Shown: piece by piece, positions 28,499 through 38,039 of the stretch | Layout of the letters: every line of letters begins with the position of its first letter | Position numbering within the stretch: the first letter of the stretch is position 1 | NCBI RefSeq assembly: GCF_000243235.1 | Contig: NZ_JH594606.1 | Span: 2,600,572-2,664,571, forward strand | DNA: 64,000 bases | Direction of reading: 5' to 3' | Source: Gillisia limnaea DSM 15749 | Lineage (GTDB): Bacteria; Bacteroidota; Bacteroidia; Flavobacteriales; Flavobacteriaceae | Program-made: the position numbers and the translations under genes | Notes under the pieces: generated by a model | Told to the model about the DNA's origin: nothing | Databases searched by the model: none | What the model saw: only the letters and a program-made list of their open reading frames with translations

Positions 28499-31033
28499 AT
28501 GGCAAAGAATTTAGTGATTGTGGAATCTCCGGCCAAGGCAAAAACCATTGAGAAATTTTTAGGTAAGGATTATACCGTAGCCTCCAGTTTTGGTCATATT
28601 GCCGATTTACCAACCAAGGAATTGGGCGTAGATACGGAGGGAGATTTTAAGCCTAAATATATCGTTAATAAAGATAAAAAGGATGTAGTTAGCAAACTCA
28701 GGAAATTAGCCAAGACCGCTGAAATTGTGTGGCTGGCGAGTGATGAAGACCGGGAGGGGGAAGCGATCGCATGGCACCTGGCAGAAGAGTTGAAACTGGA
28801 TAAAGATAAAACAAGACGAATCGTATTTCATGAGATCACCAAATCGGCCATTTTAAAAGCGATTGACAATCCTAGAAGCATAGATTATAACCTGGTAAAT
28901 GCGCAACAGGCAAGAAGAGTGCTGGACAGGCTCGTAGGCTATGAGCTTTCTCCTATATTATGGAGAAAGGTAAAAGGCGGACTTTCAGCGGGAAGAGTGC
29001 AATCTGTTTCGGTAAGGTTAATTGTAGAACGCGAGCGGGAGATCCAGGATTTTAAAGCAGAAGCCTCTTTCAGGATCGATGCTGAATTTACTACGGAAGA
29101 AGGAAAAACCTTTAAGGCGAAGCTTCCGAAAAATTTTGACACTAAAAAAGAGGCTGAGGATTTTCTGAAGAAAAATACCGGCGCCAATTATAAAGTAGCA
29201 GATCTTTCTACCAAGCCTGCAAAAAAATCACCTGCACCACCTTTTACAACTTCTACCTTGCAACAGGAAGCTGCAAGGAAATTGTATTTCTCGGTAAGTA
29301 AAACAATGACAATGGCTCAACGTTTATATGAGGCCGGTCATATTACCTATATGAGAACGGATAGTGTAAATCTTTCTGAAGATGCGAGAAAAGGGGCAAA
29401 GCAGGAGATCCTAAAATCCTACGGAGAAAAATATTCAAAAACCAGGCAATTTAAAGGGAAATCAAAGGGAGCTCAGGAAGCACACGAGGCAATTAGACCT
29501 ACCAATTTTGAAAATCATACGGTAAAAGCAGATCGCGATGAGGAGCGCCTGTACGAATTGATTTGGAAGCGTACCGTTGCATCTCAAATGAGTGAAGCAG
29601 AGTTGGAGAGAACCAATGTTAAAATTGATGCAGATAAACATACTAAGCAGTTTACAGCAAACGGAGAGGTCTTAATTTTTGATGGGTTTTTAAAAGTCTA
29701 TCTTGAAGGAAGCGATGATGAAGATGAGGAACAGGAAGGAATGTTGCCTGCTCTAAAGATAAATGAAAAGCTGGAAAACAATTATATAACAGCTACCGAA
29801 AGGTTTACAAGACCTCCTTATCGATATACGGAAGCTTCTTTGGTGAAAAAACTGGAAGAACTTGGAATTGGTCGACCTTCAACCTATGCACCAACTATTT
29901 CAACCATTCAAAACAGGAATTATATTGAAAAAGGTTCGATAGAAGGGATGGAGCGAAATTATGCGCAATTGATCCTTAAAAATGATACGTTTAGCGAAAA
30001 AATGCTGTCCGAAACGGTAGGAAGTGATAAAGGTAAATTGGTTCCCACTGCGGTTGGAACTGTTGTTAATGATTTTTTAGTAAATCATTTCTCGAACATT
30101 CTGGATTATAATTTCACAGCGAAAGTGGAGCAGAGTTTTGATGATATTGCTGAAGGAAATGAAGAATGGACCAAAATGATGCGGGATTTCTATTCAGAAT
30201 TTCATCCACAGGTTCTGGATGTTGCCGAAAACGCAGAAAGGGAAGTAGGAGAGCGAATTCTTGGCGAAGATCCTGAAACTGGAAAACCAGTAAGTGTGAG
30301 ATTGGGTAAATTTGGGCCTATGGTACAAATTGGTTCTGTGGAGGATGATGAAAAACCACGTTTTGCCGGCTTGATGCCGGATCAAACTTTAGACTCTATT
30401 ACCTATGAAGAAGCTATGGACTTGTTCAAGCTTCCAAAGGAAATAGGGGAATATGAAGGAGAAACAGTAGAGGTGAATAATGGCCGTTTTGGTCCTTATG
30501 TGCGCTATGGAAAAACCTTTGTTTCTCTAGATAAAGGAGAGGACCCAATGATTGTGGATATGGAAAGGGCTTTGGAGCTGATTAAAGCCAAGGAAAAAGC
30601 AGACGCTCCTATTTATGTTTATGATGGAAAACCTGTTCAAAAGGGAGTAGGTAGATTCGGTCCGTTTTTAAAGTGGAATGATATCTTTATCAACGTTAAT
30701 AAAAAGTACGATTTCGATAATTTAAGCGATGCTGAGATCGAGGAATTGATTGAAGATAAGAAGAGAAAAGAAATAGAAAAGGTTATCCATAATTGGGAAG
30801 AGGAAGGAATTAGAGTTGAAAAAGCACGCTGGGGCCGTTCCAATATCCTAAAGGGAAAAACCAAAATTGAATTGCCGAAAACAGTGGATGCTTCAAAATT
30901 AACTTTAGAAGAAGTTAAAGAGATCCTGGATAAAAAAACCAAGAAACCTGCAAAAAAGAAGCCGGCAGCGAAGAAGAAAACTTCAGCCAAAAAAGCAGGA
31001 ACTGCTAAAAAAACCACCACAAAAAAGAAGTAA
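28499..31033 (+). CDS. topA: DNA topoisomerase I
   Basis: TopA relaxes negative supercoils by a type IA mechanism. The TOPRIM domain starts at once (VESPAKAKTIEKFLG), with the acidic triad in SDEDREGEA (residues 81-89), and the active-site tyrosine is Tyr284 in ITYMRTDS. The C-terminal half (about 580-800) has repeats of the Toprim C-terminal type (RFGPYVRYGKTF, RFGPFLKWNDIF) instead of zinc fingers. The final ~40 residues are a Lys/Ala tail like that of histone H1. Three bases separate it from the next gene. Confidence 0.97.
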   Translation: MAKNLVIVESPAKAKTIEKFLGKDYTVASSFGHIADLPTKELGVDTEGDFKPKYIVNKDKKDVVSKLRKLAKTAEIVWLASDEDREGEAIAWHLAEELKLDKDKTRRIVFHEITKSAILKAIDNPRSIDYNLVNAQQARRVLDRLVGYELSPILWRKVKGGLSAGRVQSVSVRLIVEREREIQDFKAEASFRIDAEFTTEEGKTFKAKLPKNFDTKKEAEDFLKKNTGANYKVADLSTKPAKKSPAPPFTTSTLQQEAARKLYFSVSKTMTMAQRLYEAGHITYMRTDSVNLSEDARKGAKQEILKSYGEKYSKTRQFKGKSKGAQEAHEAIRPTNFENHTVKADRDEERLYELIWKRTVASQMSEAELERTNVKIDADKHTKQFTANGEVLIFDGFLKVYLEGSDDEDEEQEGMLPALKINEKLENNYITATERFTRPPYRYTEASLVKKLEELGIGRPSTYAPTISTIQNRNYIEKGSIEGMERNYAQLILKNDTFSEKMLSETVGSDKGKLVPTAVGTVVNDFLVNHFSNILDYNFTAKVEQSFDDIAEGNEEWTKMMRDFYSEFHPQVLDVAENAEREVGERILGEDPETGKPVSVRLGKFGPMVQIGSVEDDEKPRFAGLMPDQTLDSITYEEAMDLFKLPKEIGEYEGETVEVNNGRFGPYVRYGKTFVSLDKGEDPMIVDMERALELIKAKEKADAPIYVYDGKPVQKGVGRFGPFLKWNDIFINVNKKYDFDNLSDAEIEELIEDKKRKEIEKVIHNWEEEGIRVEKARWGRSNILKGKTKIELPKTVDASKLTLEEVKEILDKKTKKPAKKKPAAKKKTSAKKAGTAKKTTTKKK

Positions 31034-31036
31034 TTA

Positions 31037-32200
31037 ATGGATTTTGAATTTTTAAATCCTCTGGATGAGGAATTTTTGGAAGAAATTAATTCTTTTGAAT
31101 CTAATACCCTAAGCGGGCAACTAAAAATGCATTCCAGGAAATCTGGTATTCCGGAATTGGAGGACATAAGAATTGCTGTTTTTGGAGTTAAGGAAAATCG
31201 ACTGGCAATTAAAAATGGCGATGAATTCCTAAACTTTAACGGAATTCGAAGAGCTTTTTATAGTTTATTTCCGGGAAACTGGTATTTGAATATTGCAGAT
31301 CTTGGGGATATAGAAAAGGGAGAAACCGTAGAAGATACGTACTTTGCTTTACAAACCCTGGTAAAAGAGCTTGTTAAAAAAAGGATAATCCCGGTAATTT
31401 TGGGAGGAAGTCAGGATTTGATATATGCCCAATACCGCGCCTATGATACGATTTCACAAATGGTGAACCTTGTAAATATAGACAGCCGTTTTGATTTAGG
31501 CGATGCAGAAAAACCTATTAGCAACCGGTCTTACATTGGGAAGATCGTTGTAAATAAACCTTATAATCTCTTCAATTATTCAAATGTGGGGTATCAAACC
31601 TATTTCAATTCTCAGGATGAAATAGAATTGATGGAGCGTTTGTTCTTTGATGCCTACAGGTTGGGAGAAGTGTCAAAAAATATAACCACTATTGAGCCTG
31701 TGATGCGGGATGCCAATTTGGTTGGAATAGATTTGGGAGCCGTGAATTCTTCGGTTATAGGGAGAAGTCATTTGAATTCCCCCAATGGATTTGACGGAAA
31801 AGAGATTTGTGCCCTTGCCCGGTATGCCGGAATTAGTGATAAGGTAAGCTCTTTTGGAATTTATGAATATTCTTCAGATTTTTCAGGAACAGGAAATATG
31901 CTTATCGCTCAAATGCTTTGGTATTTTATTGAAGGAGTGAATTACAGAACGGATGAAGATACCCTTTCAGCAAAAAAGGATTTTATAAAATATCAGGTTC
32001 CTATTGATGATGAGGTGCTTGTGTTTTTTAAAAGCCCGGTAAGCGGAAGATGGTGGATAGAAATACCATTTATTTCCAATTCCAATACTAAATTAAAAAG
32101 GCATACGTTATTACCTTGCAGTGAGGAAGATTATTTAGAGGCCTGTAATCAGGTAATTCCTGAAAGATGGTACAAAACAAAGAGAAAGAACGAATTATAA
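31037..32200 (+). CDS. Arginase/formimidoylglutamase-fold protein with degenerate metal site
   Basis: The 387-residue protein follows the ureohydrolase fold. The three metal-binding motifs are present but altered: GGSQD (123-127) in place of GGDHS, DSRFD (149-153) in place of DAHxD, and DLG (232-234) in place of DxD. Three of six usual Mn ligands (His, His, Asp) are therefore Gln126, Arg151 and Gly234. Databases tend to call this group 'formimidoylglutamase', but catalysis by the normal mechanism looks unlikely. It starts three bases after topA and precedes gldK by about 110 bases, an arrangement seen in related genomes. Role unknown. Confidence 0.8.
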   Translation: MDFEFLNPLDEEFLEEINSFESNTLSGQLKMHSRKSGIPELEDIRIAVFGVKENRLAIKNGDEFLNFNGIRRAFYSLFPGNWYLNIADLGDIEKGETVEDTYFALQTLVKELVKKRIIPVILGGSQDLIYAQYRAYDTISQMVNLVNIDSRFDLGDAEKPISNRSYIGKIVVNKPYNLFNYSNVGYQTYFNSQDEIELMERLFFDAYRLGEVSKNITTIEPVMRDANLVGIDLGAVNSSVIGRSHLNSPNGFDGKEICALARYAGISDKVSSFGIYEYSSDFSGTGNMLIAQMLWYFIEGVNYRTDEDTLSAKKDFIKYQVPIDDEVLVFFKSPVSGRWWIEIPFISNSNTKLKRHTLLPCSEEDYLEACNQVIPERWYKTKRKNEL

Positions 32201-32313
32201 AAAATAATGGCTTATTAAGATTTAGAGTATTTTTACCGTGCCTATTGTTTTTTATAAAATAATTGGATAGGTTTACCACCTAAATAAAATTTGCCGTAAC
32301 CCTGAAAGATATT

Positions 32314-33678
32314 ATGAAGAAAATCATTTCGCTTATTGCCATTATTGCAATTCTTGCTGGTTGTAGTCGTGGAGATCGTGGTCAGCTGGTTGGAGCACAA
32401 GGAAAAAAGTGGAATCCGGAAAAACCTTACGGTATGGCATTGGTACCAGGTGGTGCCTTTATTATGGGTAAGGCCGATGATGACATGGCAGACATGAAAA
32501 ATGCTCCTCCCAAAACAGTAACCGTGCGTTCTTTCTATATGGATGAAACGGAAATAACCAATGCAGAATACCGACAATTTACCAACTGGGTAAGGGATTC
32601 TATCGTTAGAATGAGATTGGCTATTGAGGCCGATTTTGAAGGAAATGTTGCTGGTGATGATGGAATTGGGGAATATGCCTTTTTAGACAGTGATCCTGAG
32701 AACATGACCGTTTATGAGAAGTATATGTATGATAACTATACCTCATTTTCTGAAGATTACCAGGGAAGAAAACTTAATAAGGATATTGATATTATTTGGG
32801 ATACCCGTGATTATCCGGATGAAGCCTATGCAAGGGTTATGGATACCATGTACATCCCATTAGAAGAATCATACAACGGCCAACGTACTATTGATGTCAA
32901 GAAATTAAAATTCAAGTACCGATGGATGGATATTCAGGCCGCGGCAAGATCTAAAGCTCAAAAGCGAAGTGATTTTATAAAAACTGAAGAAGTATTGGTT
33001 TATCCGGATACAGCAGTTTGGATCAAGGATTTCAATTATTCCTATAACGAACCTATGCATAATGATTATTACTGGCATACAGCCTTTGATGATTACCCGG
33101 TGGTTGGAGTAACCTGGGAGCAGGCTAAAGCCTTCACTCAATGGAGAACCTTATATCATAATGCTTTCAGAAAGAAAAAAGGAGATCACGATGTTCCCAC
33201 TTATAGATTGCCTACAGAAGCAGAATGGGAATACGCTGCACGTGGCGGATTGCAATCTGCTACATATCCATGGGGTGGTCCTTACGCCAAAAATGACCGC
33301 GGTTGTTTTATGGCTAACTTTAAACCTTTAAGGGGGGATTACGCTGCAGATCAGGCTTTGTACACTGTAGAAGCAAAATCTTACGAGCCCAATGATTACA
33401 ACCTATATAATATGGCCGGAAATGTTTCGGAATGGGTGAATTCCTCCTACGATCCATCTTCCTATGAATATATGTCTTCCATGAACCCGAATGTGAATAA
33501 TGAAGATGATTTTAGAAAAGTTGTTCGCGGAGGTTCCTGGAAGGATGTTGCTTACTTTTTGCAGGTGAGCACCAGGGATTACGAATTTGCAGATACCGCG
33601 AGAAGTTATATAGGCTTCAGGACTGTTCAGGATTATCTTGGAACCGATTTGACCTTAAATCAACCTCCGAAAAATTAA
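32314..33678 (+). CDS. gldK: Gliding motility / type IX secretion lipoprotein GldK
   Basis: GldK is a lipoprotein with a formylglycine-generating-enzyme (SUMF1) fold. With GldN it forms the periplasmic ring of the type IX secretion system under the outer membrane. Seen: lipobox Cys17 (AILAGCSRG), the VPGGAFIMGKADDD start of the SUMF1 domain, VVGVTWEQAKAFTQW, RLPTEAEWEYAARGG, and the C-terminal VVRGGSWKDVAYF and GFRTV motifs. The catalytic cysteines of true FGE are not expected. It opens the gldKLMN operon. Confidence 0.95.
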   Translation: MKKIISLIAIIAILAGCSRGDRGQLVGAQGKKWNPEKPYGMALVPGGAFIMGKADDDMADMKNAPPKTVTVRSFYMDETEITNAEYRQFTNWVRDSIVRMRLAIEADFEGNVAGDDGIGEYAFLDSDPENMTVYEKYMYDNYTSFSEDYQGRKLNKDIDIIWDTRDYPDEAYARVMDTMYIPLEESYNGQRTIDVKKLKFKYRWMDIQAAARSKAQKRSDFIKTEEVLVYPDTAVWIKDFNYSYNEPMHNDYYWHTAFDDYPVVGVTWEQAKAFTQWRTLYHNAFRKKKGDHDVPTYRLPTEAEWEYAARGGLQSATYPWGGPYAKNDRGCFMANFKPLRGDYAADQALYTVEAKSYEPNDYNLYNMAGNVSEWVNSSYDPSSYEYMSSMNPNVNNEDDFRKVVRGGSWKDVAYFLQVSTRDYEFADTARSYIGFRTVQDYLGTDLTLNQPPKN

Positions 33679-33740
33679 AACCCAATACTATCAACCTATT
33701 TACAAAACAACCCAAAAAAACAAATTAATATCTTTTTACT

Positions 33741-34382
33741 ATGGCGAATTCAAAGAATAAAATGAAAATAATGAACATGGTGTATGGTCTAGGTGCATCT
33801 GTGGTAATTCTAGGAGCACTCTTTAAAATTATGCACTGGCCTTTTGGTAACGAAATGCTTATACTTGGGCTTGTAACAGAAGCCATTGTTTTTGCTGTTT
33901 CAGCATTTGAACCTGTTGATGATAACCTGGATTGGTCTCTTGTTTATCCTGAATTAGCTGGTGGAATTGCCGCTGAAAGACAATCATTGATAGAAGAAAA
34001 TAAAGAAACCGATGTTTCTCTTTCCAAAAAACTGGACGATATGCTTAGAGAGGCTAAAATTGATGCGAACCTAATGAACAGCCTTGGAGACAGCATTCGT
34101 AATTTTGAAGGAGCTGCAAAATCCATATCTCCTACGGTAGATGCGATGGCTTCTCAAAGAAAATACAGCGAAGAGCTTACCATGGCTGCTGCTCAAATGG
34201 AAACCTTGAATAATCTTTATAAGGTACAGGTGGAATCTTCGGCAAGACAGTCAGAGATCAGTCAGGAAGTTGCTGAGAATGCCTCTAAACTTAAAGATCA
34301 AATGGGGTCGCTGGCTAACAACCTTTCTTCCTTAAATGGAGTGTATGGAGGTATGTTAACCGCTATGAATGTAAGAGCTTAA
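33741..34382 (+). CDS. gldL: Type IX secretion inner-membrane motor protein GldL
   Basis: GldL is the stator-like inner-membrane partner of GldM that uses the proton gradient to drive secretion and gliding. The 213-residue protein has two N-terminal membrane helices (about 13-32 and 38-57). The second contains the conserved glutamate region (MLILGLVTEAIVFAVSAFEP). A cytoplasmic helical tail of about 140 residues follows. The ATG at 33741 follows gldK by 62 bases. Confidence 0.95.
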   Translation: MANSKNKMKIMNMVYGLGASVVILGALFKIMHWPFGNEMLILGLVTEAIVFAVSAFEPVDDNLDWSLVYPELAGGIAAERQSLIEENKETDVSLSKKLDDMLREAKIDANLMNSLGDSIRNFEGAAKSISPTVDAMASQRKYSEELTMAAAQMETLNNLYKVQVESSARQSEISQEVAENASKLKDQMGSLANNLSSLNGVYGGMLTAMNVRA

Positions 34383-34434
34383 GTAATTAGTTGTAAAGAC
34401 TATCAATATTAATACTATACTAAACTAATTATAC

Positions 34435-35982
34435 ATGGCGTCTGGAAAACAATCACCAAGACAGAAGATGATAAACCTGATGTATTTGGTTTTCATTGCA
34501 ATGTTGGCTTTAAATATGTCCAAAGAGGTTCTTACCGCTTTTGGATTAATGAATGAAAAATTGGCAGAATCTAACGAGACTACCACTCAACGAAACAGCG
34601 CGTTTATGGCGGGGCTTGAAGAGAAGGTAGGTGAGCAGCCAGCAAAGTATGCTCCTCTAAAGGAAAAAGCCGATAAAATTGATGAACTTTCAACAAATTT
34701 TAATAATTATATCGAAGGAATTAAGGCAGAATTGACCAAGGATAGGGTTGAAGAAGCCGATAGAACAGATTATGAAACGATGGACCGCTCAGACCAGCTG
34801 GATGAGATGTTCTTCACGGGAGGTAGAAATACAGTGAAAGGTGAGGAGTTTGTTCAACAAATTGCAACATATCGTGATGGTGTGGCCTCGTTAATTGAGA
34901 ATGAGTTCTCATCGATTGCTTCAAATGTAAAAAATGAATTCGCCACAGAACCTGTTCAAGATAGAAACGGGATTACTAAGCCGTGGTTGGAATACCATTA
35001 CCAGGGATATCCAATGATTGCTTCGCTTACAAAACTAACCCAGTTACAGGCAGACGTGAAAACAACTGAAAGTGAAATTCTTTCGGCTATGCTTTCGGGA
35101 CAATTGCAAAGTGAAGTATCGCTTACCAATTACGAGGCAATTGTTGTCCCAACGAAAACAGCCTTCTTTTCCGGTGAAAACTTTACCGGTAAAATCGTGC
35201 TAGGCCGTGTTGATAAAACTTTGAAGTTTGACAATGTTGTTGTAAATGGAAGAAAAGTTGAAAGCAATGAAGCCGGACAGGTATCTCTAAGTTTTCCTGC
35301 TGGGAACGTTGGAGAACAGGACATAAAAGGTGAAATTCAGTTTAAGGAAGGTGACTCTGTAGTGAGTATTCCAATTTCTAGTTCGTACGCTGTAATACCC
35401 AAGCCTAATTCTGCCGTAATTTCTGCAGATAAAATGAACGTGGTATACAGAGGGGTGAAAAATCCAATGACAATTTCCATTCCTGGTGTTTCTAGTGTTA
35501 CCGCCAATGCCCCGGGATTATCTCCTGCAGGTGGAGCAGGAAACTATGTTATGGATGTAACTACGCTGCAGGCTCGTGAGGTAACTATTAATGTAAGTGG
35601 TAAATTACCTGGAGGAGAAACTGTTTCAGATAGTAAATCATTTAGAGTTAAGGATATCCCAAGTCCGGTAGGAACGATAAGAGGAGAAGACGGATCGGTT
35701 AAAATGCCACGTAATAATCTTGAAATTGCAACCGTTGGAGCGGCACTTCAGGACTTCGATTTTGATATTGGCCTTAGTATTACCGGTTTCAGTTTCAAGG
35801 TTTCAGGACAACCAACCATAAATGTGCGGGGTAATAAATTAGATGCACCTGCTAAAGCTGCATTAAGACGTGCAACAAGAGGAGAAACCGTGCAAATTTT
35901 TGATATAGAAGCACAATTGGCTTCAAATACAGGATATAAGCTTAAAAAAGTATCCCCTGTATTTGTAGAGTTAACAAATTAA
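34435..35982 (+). CDS. gldM: Type IX secretion periplasmic shaft protein GldM
   Basis: GldM is a single-pass inner-membrane protein. Its periplasmic part forms a long dimeric shaft carrying torque from GldL to the GldK-GldN ring. Seen in its 515 residues: the RQKMINLMYLVFIAMLALNMSKEVL helix (about 10-34), a helical domain to about 220, then successive beta-sandwich domains to the C-terminus (KVSPVFVELTN). Length is typical of flavobacterial GldM. Confidence 0.96.
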   Translation: MASGKQSPRQKMINLMYLVFIAMLALNMSKEVLTAFGLMNEKLAESNETTTQRNSAFMAGLEEKVGEQPAKYAPLKEKADKIDELSTNFNNYIEGIKAELTKDRVEEADRTDYETMDRSDQLDEMFFTGGRNTVKGEEFVQQIATYRDGVASLIENEFSSIASNVKNEFATEPVQDRNGITKPWLEYHYQGYPMIASLTKLTQLQADVKTTESEILSAMLSGQLQSEVSLTNYEAIVVPTKTAFFSGENFTGKIVLGRVDKTLKFDNVVVNGRKVESNEAGQVSLSFPAGNVGEQDIKGEIQFKEGDSVVSIPISSSYAVIPKPNSAVISADKMNVVYRGVKNPMTISIPGVSSVTANAPGLSPAGGAGNYVMDVTTLQAREVTINVSGKLPGGETVSDSKSFRVKDIPSPVGTIRGEDGSVKMPRNNLEIATVGAALQDFDFDIGLSITGFSFKVSGQPTINVRGNKLDAPAKAALRRATRGETVQIFDIEAQLASNTGYKLKKVSPVFVELTN

Positions 35983-35995
35983 AAAAATCAGTACA

Positions 35996-36889
35996 ATGAA
36001 GTGGAATCAATTTTTGATAGGGGTGTTTGGATTGTTTGTTAGTCTTTCATCGTTTGGGCAATCAAACATGTTAAACGCAAAATCTCCGGATGATATCGGA
36101 AAATTATCTGATGCAGAACTGGTGGTAAAGAAAGAAAGCACACCATTGGAATATGGTTATGTTGATGACAGAGATATCCTATGGTCTAAAAATATCTGGG
36201 AGGTCATCGATTTGGATGAAAGAGTGAATTTTCCGCTTTATTATCCTATTGACACCAACAATATTGGATCCAACCGAAGATCGCTTTACGATGTCTTGAT
36301 GACAGGAATTAGGAGTGGAAAAATTAAGAATATATACGCAGATGCCTATTTCAATGAAAAGAGGACACTGGAAGGTATAAGTGCTGCTATTTCCAAAGTT
36401 GATACAACAGATCTTGGTGTTGAACAATACAACGCTGGGGAGCAAATAGATGAGCAGTTTATAAATAGAAGGGATATCACCTCTGCTGATATAGCTCAAT
36501 ATCATATTCGTGGGATGTGGTATTTTGATAAACGCCAGGCAGAGATGAAATATAGATTATTGGGGATAGCTCCTGTTGCTCCCGATGTAAATTTCCTGGA
36601 TGATGAAGAGCCGGATCTTGTTGAACTTTTTTGGGTATGGTTCCCGGATGCACGGGAAATCTTATTTGAGAATGAGGCTTTTAATGGAGGGAATTCATCC
36701 CAATCTATTACCTATGACCATTTGTTGAATGCACGCAGGTTCAATGCAGTTATTTATAAGGAAGATAACGTGCAGGGGGATAGGGGAGTTAATGATTATA
36801 TCACCGAAAATGCGTTTATGCAACTTCTGGAGTCTCAGAGGATAAAAGAGCAAATCAGAAACTTTGAACAGGACATGTGGAACTACTAA
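35996..36889 (+). CDS. gldN: Type IX secretion periplasmic ring protein GldN
   Basis: GldN (PorN) pairs with GldK in the large periplasmic ring. The 297-residue protein has a signal peptide ending SSFGQ (about residue 22), the DDRDILWSKNIWEVIDLDERVNFPLYYP motif, and a C-terminal FEQDMWNY end. It starts 13 bases after gldM and is closed by a terminator. Confidence 0.95.
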   Translation: MKWNQFLIGVFGLFVSLSSFGQSNMLNAKSPDDIGKLSDAELVVKKESTPLEYGYVDDRDILWSKNIWEVIDLDERVNFPLYYPIDTNNIGSNRRSLYDVLMTGIRSGKIKNIYADAYFNEKRTLEGISAAISKVDTTDLGVEQYNAGEQIDEQFINRRDITSADIAQYHIRGMWYFDKRQAEMKYRLLGIAPVAPDVNFLDDEEPDLVELFWVWFPDAREILFENEAFNGGNSSQSITYDHLLNARRFNAVIYKEDNVQGDRGVNDYITENAFMQLLESQRIKEQIRNFEQDMWNY

Positions 36890-36981: not shown

Positions 36982-36992
36982 AATTGAAACCT

Positions 36993-38039
36993 ATGTTGGA
37001 TTATATCCTTGTTGGAGCTGGATTAAGTGGGATTGCGGTCGCGGAAAAATTGATTGATTCAGGTAAAAATATTCGGGTCTTTGAAAATCATTCCCAGTCC
37101 TCTTCCACAGTTGCAGGAGGAATTTATAATCCGGTTATTTTAAAACGATTTACTCTTGCCTGGGAAGCAGATGAACAGTTAAAAACCGCAATTCCGTTCT
37201 ACCGTTCTCTGGAAAAAAAACTGAAAACCTCTTTGATCAGTGAAATGCCTGTTTATAGAAAATTTCATTCGGTAGAAGAACAGAACAACTGGTTTGCTGC
37301 CATGGATAAACCATCGGTCGCCGCGTTTCTTTCCCCGAATCTAATCTCCCAAATAAACCCAAACATTCCTTCTGATTTTTCTTTCGGAATGGTAAAAAAT
37401 ACCGGTGTCATTAATACAGAATTACTTTTGGATGCCTACAGGAAGTATTTAAAAGAGTTGGATGTTTTCATAACTGAAGATTTTCAGTACGATATGCTTC
37501 AGCTCAAAAATGATCAATTTAATTATAAGGGTTTTCAGTCGAAACGAATTATTTTTTGTGACGGTTTTGGTATGGCCAGGAATCCATTTTTCAATAAACT
37601 TCCGCTGAATGGGAATAAAGGGGAATATTTAATTATCAAATCTGAAGCCCTTAAACTGGAAGTGGCTGTGAAATCATCGATTTTTATATTGCCATTGGGA
37701 AAGGATCTTTATAAGATTGGCGCAACTTATAACAACAAGGATAAGACTCCGGAGCCAACAGAGGATGCAAGGGAATATTTGCTGGAAAAGCTACGCACAT
37801 TGATTACCTGTGATTTTGAAGTGGTAGGGCAGGTTGCCGGAATTCGTCCTGCAACCGCCGATAGAAAACCACTGGTAGGAGAGCATTCGGAGTATAAGGG
37901 GATGTTTTGCTGTAATGGTTTTGGCAGCCGGGGTGTTTTAATAGGTCCCACAGTGGCAAGGAAATTGATAGATTTTATTGAAAATGGTACGCCCATACCT
38001 TCAGATATCAATATTAGGAGGTATGCTAAAAAATGTTAA
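36993..38039 (+). CDS. FAD-dependent oxidoreductase of the D-amino-acid/glycine oxidase (DAO) family
   Basis: The N-terminal ADP-binding fold has GAGLSG (residues 8-13 from the ATG at 36993). A C-terminal GIRPATADRKPLVGEH and FGSRGVLIGPTVA region is typical of DAO-type amine oxidases. The SSTVAGGIYNPV motif resembles the flavin domain of MnmC and glycine oxidase. At 348 residues it is a single-domain member and lacks the methyltransferase half of MnmC. Substrate unknown. The start at 36984 (TTG) is less likely. Confidence 0.82.
   Translation: MLDYILVGAGLSGIAVAEKLIDSGKNIRVFENHSQSSSTVAGGIYNPVILKRFTLAWEADEQLKTAIPFYRSLEKKLKTSLISEMPVYRKFHSVEEQNNWFAAMDKPSVAAFLSPNLISQINPNIPSDFSFGMVKNTGVINTELLLDAYRKYLKELDVFITEDFQYDMLQLKNDQFNYKGFQSKRIIFCDGFGMARNPFFNKLPLNGNKGEYLIIKSEALKLEVAVKSSIFILPLGKDLYKIGATYNNKDKTPEPTEDAREYLLEKLRTLITCDFEVVGQVAGIRPATADRKPLVGEHSEYKGMFCCNGFGSRGVLIGPTVARKLIDFIENGTPIPSDINIRRYAKKC

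Follow-up and report, generated by a model that had tools for sequence, protein, structure and literature searches.

What is a gene with the automatic name formimidoylglutamase doing between a topoisomerase gene and the best-known secretion and gliding operon of the Bacteroidota, and can its product still be that kind of enzyme? The question arises in Gillisia limnaea DSM 15749, in a window (the whole stretch of DNA that was analysed) of 64,000 nucleotides, contig NZ_JH594606.1, positions 2,600,572 to 2,664,571. Judging from the open-licence PMC literature, the gene, called ARG here, is an unstudied neighbour of that operon: none of the papers listed there describes it, and no paper there pairs formimidoylglutamase with gldK or Flavobacteri-, links type IX secretion to an "arginase family protein", or mentions the locus tags Fjoh_1851/1852. 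Either a factor has been missed in work on the type IX secretion system (T9SS), or the locus serves an unrelated cellular function. The name matters as well: it resembles that of an enzyme which ARG very probably is not, and reconstructions of histidine degradation for these bacteria can therefore be misled. The features concerned, in window coordinates, are:

28499..31033, + strand: topA, DNA topoisomerase I (named by eye; a homologue at L250 reaches 721 bits with TIGR01051, whose cut-off is 456)
31037..32200, + strand: ARG, putative pseudo-ureohydrolase, 387 aa, ATG start (ORF list, PF00491, AF2, Foldseek)
31403..31417, + strand: motif 1, GGSQD, residues 123-127; Gln126 at the arginase His101 position, Asp127 almost invariant in the family
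31481..31495, + strand: motif 2, DSRFD, residues 149-153; Arg151 replaces the second-metal His, D149 and D153 retained
31730..31738, + strand: motif 3, DLG, residues 232-234; D232 retained, Gly234 replaces the second-metal Asp
31943..32197, + strand: family-specific C-terminal extension of ARG, about residues 303-387, with F330, K332-S333, W339-W340, C361, D365-Y366, P375 and W378; lacking in canonical relatives, no Pfam match
32201..32313, + strand: 113-nt gap ahead of gldK, probable gldKLMN leader (gap measurement, site scan)
32314..36889, + strand: gldK, gldL, gldM and gldN, T9SS/gliding ring and motor genes (gldK, gldL and gldN over NCBIfam cut-offs; GldM by PF12081)

The preliminary description of this DNA placed ARG right behind topA and ahead of the gliding operon, and the ORF map with NCBIfam/Pfam naming agrees: topA ends 3 nt before ARG starts, and gldKLMN follows on the same strand. 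The ORF translation also gives the three motifs exactly as claimed there, with Gln126, Arg151 and Gly234. The Mn ligands of human arginase are His101, Asp124, His126, Asp128, Asp232 and Asp234; set against these, the three ARG residues stand at the positions of His101, His126 and Asp234, and D149, D153 and D232 are retained. No signal peptide was seen on reading the sequence, and the closest named relative found is Gillisia lutea, at 80% identity.

That ARG has a ureohydrolase fold can be seen from its PF00491 match (36.4 bits, cut-off 22) and from an AF2 model with pLDDT 88.9 and pTM 0.91, built from 62 rows, the window plus 61 named loci, of which 58 are placed in Flavobacteriaceae. The best PDB match by both sequence and fold is the agmatine ureohydrolase 3pzl of Thermoplasma volcanium (Foldseek E 9.8e-16, target TM 0.74 to 3pzl_B); this is a 313-aa chain, and the ARG match stops near residue 300, ahead of the extension. 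The 50 Foldseek matches listed are ureohydrolases, including metformin hydrolase and the Trypanosoma cruzi and Bacillus subtilis HutG proteins, with identities of 11-19% and query TM values of 0.50-0.62. In a profile search of PDB sequences, which listed metformin hydrolase subunit B second, the alignment ended no further than position 307. The extension alone had no Pfam match up to E = 5; the PHROGs gave no match either.

The best NCBIfam model for ARG is the HutG model TIGR01227, with a score (54.7 bits) below the cut-off of 229.15. This is weak evidence against a HutG function, because the ligand-intact HutG-type protein of the same genome fails the model too (78.8 bits). A PF00491 search of that genome (3.97 Mb, two contigs) found three genes, namely ARG, an agmatinase (L001) and the HutG-type gene (L002). 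The agmatinase has GGEHS, DAHAD and DLDAF and, at 233.6 bits, exceeds the TIGR01230 cut-off; the HutG-type protein has GGGHN, DAHTD and LDCD, and its gene lies beside hutI (433.5 bits, cut-off 298.15). HutG (TIGR01227; PDB 3m1r, 1xfk, 4mxr) and ARG have in common the fold over approximately residues 40-300, but ARG lacks three of the six Mn ligands, lies between topA and gldK rather than in a histidine-utilisation neighbourhood, and carries an 85-aa C-terminal extension. The fold, the weak family match and a bit score fairly close to the one its ligand-intact paralogue obtains are what could be said for an ordinary formimidoylglutamase or some other working ureohydrolase; against it are the three missing ligands and the HutG-type gene with intact ligands next to hutI in another part of the genome, and we consider it very improbable. 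Ordinary HutG is thus discarded on ligands and gene context, not on model score. The claim that the automatic name misleads is upheld on the same grounds, and "formimidoylglutamase" is very probably the wrong name for ARG.

As a separate observation, the HutG model misses this clade's probable enzyme, the L002 gene at 1438-2442 (78.8 bits against 229.15). The agmatinase gene at L001 (43-3283) stands between a decarboxylase-like gene and a deoxyhypusine-synthase/homospermidine-like one, both of which score below their model cut-offs; this row of genes may reflect an unusual polyamine chemistry.

Is the loss of ligands a property of one genome or of a family? An alignment of 177 members took in the window, 61 of the 80 named loci, and a single ORF from each locus of L005-L099 and L192-L211; L230-L269 postdate it. 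No member has all six ligands, or both second-metal ligands; in an outgroup of 14 canonical-type relatives all six are present in nine and both second-metal ligands in all 14, the exceptions being Asn for the first His in four and Asn for Asp128 in one. Homologues next to gldK with intact motifs had been named beforehand as what would speak against a pseudoenzyme, and none with all six ligands was found among these members or among the later rows (20 from family f3, and L250-L269). The preliminary description had proposed a pseudoenzyme or altered-metal protein, and this is supported; it had also asked whether the Gln/Arg/Gly pattern itself is conserved, and here only part holds, since ligand loss is conserved throughout but the exact pattern is not. 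The His101 equivalent is usually Gln (136 of 177, with His in 27, Asn in eight, and others). At the His126 equivalent there are 68 Lys, 39 Arg (Lys/Arg together 107/177), 19 Asn and others, with His in six, and Gly is one of many residues at the Asp234 equivalent (Ser 45, Asn 36, Gly 30, Lys 17, Thr 17, others; Asp in eight). The equivalents of Asp124, Asp128 and Asp232 are Asp in 166, 157 and 167 members, and a complete first-metal site (His-Asp-Asp-Asp) is present in 25/177. Among 64 representatives, D149 is found in 63, D153 in 59, D232 in 64 and D127 in 61, that is, in nearly all non-degenerate lineages, and Glu277 in 55. Some f3 rows come closer to a canonical site: 11 of 31 keep the second-metal His, so that their losses are confined to the first His and the last Asp. 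HutG-type proteins at L103, L104, L106 and L107, outside the window's class, have Asn instead of the first-metal His and retain the remaining five ligands (N-D-H-D-D-D).

Other residues are kept more strictly than the ligands: W339 is present in 177/177 members and C361, E220 and R224 in 176/177 each, and positions W339, W340, C361 and D365 are all empty in the outgroup. In a diverse 22-row alignment the protein is coherent and about 385 aa long, and in a tree of 76 rows (a quick method, with several long branches and a midpoint root) one branch with SH-aLRT 98 divides 63 extension-bearing rows from the other 13. ARG is a distinct family of one Bacteroidota class. Columns at least 95% conserved among the 64 representatives make up 33 of 261 in the core and 13 of 87 in the extension; those at the active-site edge of the sheet are not significantly enriched (10/56 vs 23/205, p = 0.14). 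The dN to Gillisia lutea is 0.151 for ARG, 0.076 for topA, 0.053 for gldK, 0.142 for gldM and 0.092 for gldN, this pair being near or past dS saturation and giving no dS estimate for ARG; in comparisons with three other genera, where dS is also close to saturation, ARG has a dN/dS of 0.08-0.11. By these comparisons of coding sequence, ARG is under purifying selection. Sequencing error, chance and a recent pseudogene were considered and dismissed, given 177 relatives, differing replacements and a dN comparable with that of gldM.

Two families go further. In f2, Ser, Ser and Asn stand at the three first-metal Asp positions (7/7), and in both f2 and f5 the family C-terminal Trp and Cys are retained in most rows. 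These degenerate rows are the strongest sign that selection there does not act on the metal site. The f5 proteins (L095-L099) have in effect become half-arginases, in which the N-terminal half with the metal motifs is lost or scrambled, and the C-terminal half and extension are kept.

The neighbourhood of ARG is also old. In f1, which is taken as Flavobacteriaceae since the named loci of that family fit it, the order is topA, ARG, gldK at 46/46 loci, the window included. The 80 named loci have topA upstream in 79 and gldK downstream in 79, the misses (L142, L156) being contig ends. A further 20 loci, 17 of them chosen for ARG near GldM, have topA-ARG-PorP/SprF-gldK-L-M-N in 19, while 20 chosen because linkage was not shown or unknown have topA upstream in 17 (one with an ORF between) and PorP and gldK downstream in 14, with one more PorP at a contig end. 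ARG lies directly or one gene upstream of gldK, outside Flavobacteriaceae usually with PorP/SprF between; the PorP and Gld names at these loci are BLAST matches to window proteins or to other model-named proteins. Over the 40 family codes fetched, each counted if one locus or more shows the feature, gldK is downstream in 28, topA upstream in 30 and both are present in 26; the order that the preliminary description wanted compared across Bacteroidota is conserved over many families. Linkage of ARG to GldM was counted in at least 50 of 88 loci, several scored as unlinked having proved linked on closer look. There is no gldK downstream in f2, f3, f4, f5, f8, f9, f64 (contig ends), f71, f79, f90, f94 and f98; ARG is away from topA in f3, f4, f5, f8, f9, f79, f90 and f98; topA is upstream without gldK in f2 (directly, 2/7), f71, f80 (1/2) and f94; and gldK is a neighbour without topA in f6 and f96.

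The spacing is less even than the order. At 125 Flavobacteriaceae-type loci the gap from topA to ARG has a median of 5 nt and is within 20 nt in 102, and at 124 such loci the gap from ARG to gldK has a median of 155 nt and a minimum of 38, with none within 20 nt. In other families the gap from ARG to PorP is 48-270 nt, and that from topA to ARG is more variable, -1 to 341 nt. The gap sizes suggest that ARG forms the end of a topA unit and that gldKLMN has its own leader; ARG is probably cotranscribed with topA. In the 113-nt gap of the window the scan listed no terminator-like site, the numbers of promoter- and terminator-like sites being about equal to those in shuffled sequence. For F. columnare, a DOOR2-based operon gldKLMN is used in a passage of PMC5879114.

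Where ARG has moved, other neighbours appear. At three of five f5 loci it is beside murF and a GldJ-like lipoprotein gene (404-411 bits for GldJ, not reaching the cut-off of 458, vs 237-246 for GldK), and two of these three also have PorP/SprF. Relocated ARG genes are often near a peptidoglycan gene, a pattern noticed after the fact that may be due to chance: murF in f5 (L096, L097, L099) and f98 (L251), a D-Ala-D-Ala carboxypeptidase S13 gene in f4 (L074, L082), and a MurNAc-6-P etherase gene in f8 (L066) and, by BLAST cluster, f9.

Does ARG travel with the T9SS itself? GldM and SprA_N were used as single-model proxies for the system. In a draw of 392 genomes from the phylum, ARG-type hits occurred in 97, all in the window's class (hand count), and 96 of the 97 had GldM; 101 genomes had GldM, five of them without ARG. 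The matches listed outside the class end by profile position 324 and so are without the extension. A draw of 296 genomes from the class gave 278 with both, two with ARG only, ten with GldM only and six with neither. Among the 280 ARG hits in this draw at least two are probably ordinary HutG-type (G442 and G470, E approximately 1e-16, look so, and G468, 1.6e-21, is ambiguous), so 278 is an upper figure. A degenerate ARG was sought with profile A3 in eight genomes seemingly without one and none was found, a search that does not prove absence. The co-occurrence of ARG and GldM is in any case confounded by shared ancestry.

Family f3, drawn three times (56 genomes), is more telling: ARG is present in 56, GldM in 54 and SprA_N in 50. 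In each of the six genomes that have no SprA_N, including the two with no GldM either, ARG retains the full set of 31 invariant residues. Their terminal branches are 0.10-0.19 in five cases and 0.34 in G346, the median being 0.175. The rows farthest from the root of the f3 tree are those of the SprA-less G002, G674 and G346 (L060, L062, L232), and the same fast clade also holds the SprA-bearing G662 and G654 (L234, L248), nearly as far from the root; there may be some relaxation of ARG in the SprA-less genomes. Several side observations concern the machinery rather than ARG. G663, G674 and G644 (f3) have GldM without SprA_N, that is, a motor without a translocon by these two models. At L217 (G002, f3, without SprA_N), GldL and GldM are encoded on one strand, the opposite strand carrying GldN and a short GldK-like ORF: this is a rearranged or decaying T9SS motor locus. 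G611 has SprA_N and no GldM, a gap that may be an assembly loss.

The explanation we prefer, though by little more than an even balance of judgement, is that ARG is a non-ureohydrolase pseudoenzyme, a cytoplasmic binding or regulatory protein that the secretion machinery perhaps uses and that is not dedicated to it. The part of this that concerns catalysis is much firmer, and it is highly probable from residue patterns that ARG is not a working binuclear ureohydrolase. The arginase/HutG fold has lost the second-metal pair and, on this reading, with it the hydrolysis of guanidino compounds by a binuclear Mn centre; Lys or Arg at position 151 may neutralise the leftover Asp cluster, providing a stand-in charge for the missing metal; the C-terminal extension with its invariant Trp, Cys and Tyr has been added and kept; and the protein would act in the cytoplasm by binding or regulating a partner, mostly by way of its C-terminal half, serving an envelope-related or general cellular process used by T9SS/gliding cells. 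Another possibility is an altered enzyme, in which D149, D153 and D232 with Gln or His126 (and, in some, His151) hold one metal, or a cleft filled by Lys/Arg binds a new substrate, so that a different reaction is catalysed. The retained first-metal Asp residues and Asp127, the 25 complete first sites and the four ligands of 11 f3 rows mean that a functional site for one metal or for a ligand may survive, and Glu277 and the four of 14 outgroup relatives with Asn for the first His point the same way, as do PDB titles that give a Mn-bound T. cruzi formiminoglutamase and its N114H variant. The f3 rows led us to rate this alternative slightly higher than before and the non-ureohydrolase reading slightly lower. 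It is nevertheless rather unlikely: f2 and f5 have dispensed with the site and mostly kept the C-terminal Trp and Cys, and the cleft is not significantly enriched in conserved columns. A pseudo-subunit propping an active ureohydrolase in a hetero-oligomer would have a precedent in the superfamily (MetCb for MetCa; PMC11271267), and both the rank of metformin hydrolase subunit B in the PDB search and the presence of another PF00491 protein in 34/35 ARG genomes tested are compatible with this. However, a profile of the 14 canonical-type relatives found no second ureohydrolase at 236 ARG loci (each reaching a few kb), and in G489 (95% complete, 180 contigs) ARG is the sole PF00491 match, which leaves this arrangement improbable.

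As for the neighbours, the preliminary description had suggested a structural or regulatory part of type IX secretion or gliding. A cytoplasmic component or regulator dedicated to the motor, binding, for example, the cytoplasmic part of GldL/GldM, would account for the place of ARG upstream of gldK in most family codes, for the second, GldJ-associated arrangement in f5 and for GldM in nearly all ARG genomes of both draws; this synteny and co-occurrence looked strong until the f3 draws and the intergenic gaps were considered. ARG is genetically linked to the system, but it was not lost with it, its invariant residues being kept in the six f3 genomes without SprA_N and the two of these also without GldM, and it is not present in all T9SS bearers, being missing from 5/101 and 10/288 GldM-bearing genomes; its gap to topA is tight and that to gldK never so, twelve families have no gldK downstream, and shared ancestry could produce the co-occurrence. 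The suggestion is thus not supported as it stood, and we regard a dedicated part as doubtful, about on a par with the altered enzyme. A more specific form, less likely still, is an unrecognised T9SS/gliding motor factor, a repurposed arginase that binds GldL/GldM, aids GldK assembly or senses a small cationic ligand, that couples the motor to cell state, and that was later freed for another use in f3. The tight spacing and the prevalence of topA upstream, in some families without gldK, could instead mean that the function of ARG is tied to TopA and DNA supercoiling, the gldK side being only an ancient neighbourhood; with ARG away from topA in eight families and, in f6 and f96, adjacent to gldK though not to topA, we give this little credence.

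A pseudoenzyme of this fold would not be the first. An arginase-like protein of Trypanosoma brucei is presented in its title (Hai et al. 2015; PDB 4rhq, 4rhm) as having evolved without the binuclear Mn cluster, and passages of PMC11271267 describe MetCb of metformin hydrolase as a member of the arginase family that is inactive and binds its active cognate, MetCa. By sequence and AF2 model, ARG likewise has a ureohydrolase fold whose metal ligands were lost in evolution. The T. brucei protein resembles ARG in an Arg that its PDB title names (R151, mutated to His), but it is eukaryotic and its title-named ligand positions (S149, R151, S153, S226) differ from those of ARG. MetCb (PDB 8x3g, 8ryi) is, like ARG, a bacterial ureohydrolase-family pseudoenzyme, and is a binding partner; it is in one gene cluster with the active MetCa, whereas ARG has no such neighbour. 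Set against the PorP-gldKLMN operon, ARG is a conserved neighbour in 28/40 family codes, but its ureohydrolase fold sets it apart from the Gld/Por families, and it occurs beyond the genomes that have SprA and GldM.

At the far end of the operon, a TTG-started FAD-oxidoreductase-like ORF follows gldN (window 36984-38039), with a weak match, below cut-off, to glycine oxidase ThiO; a homologue is likewise found after gldN in an f2 genome (L222).
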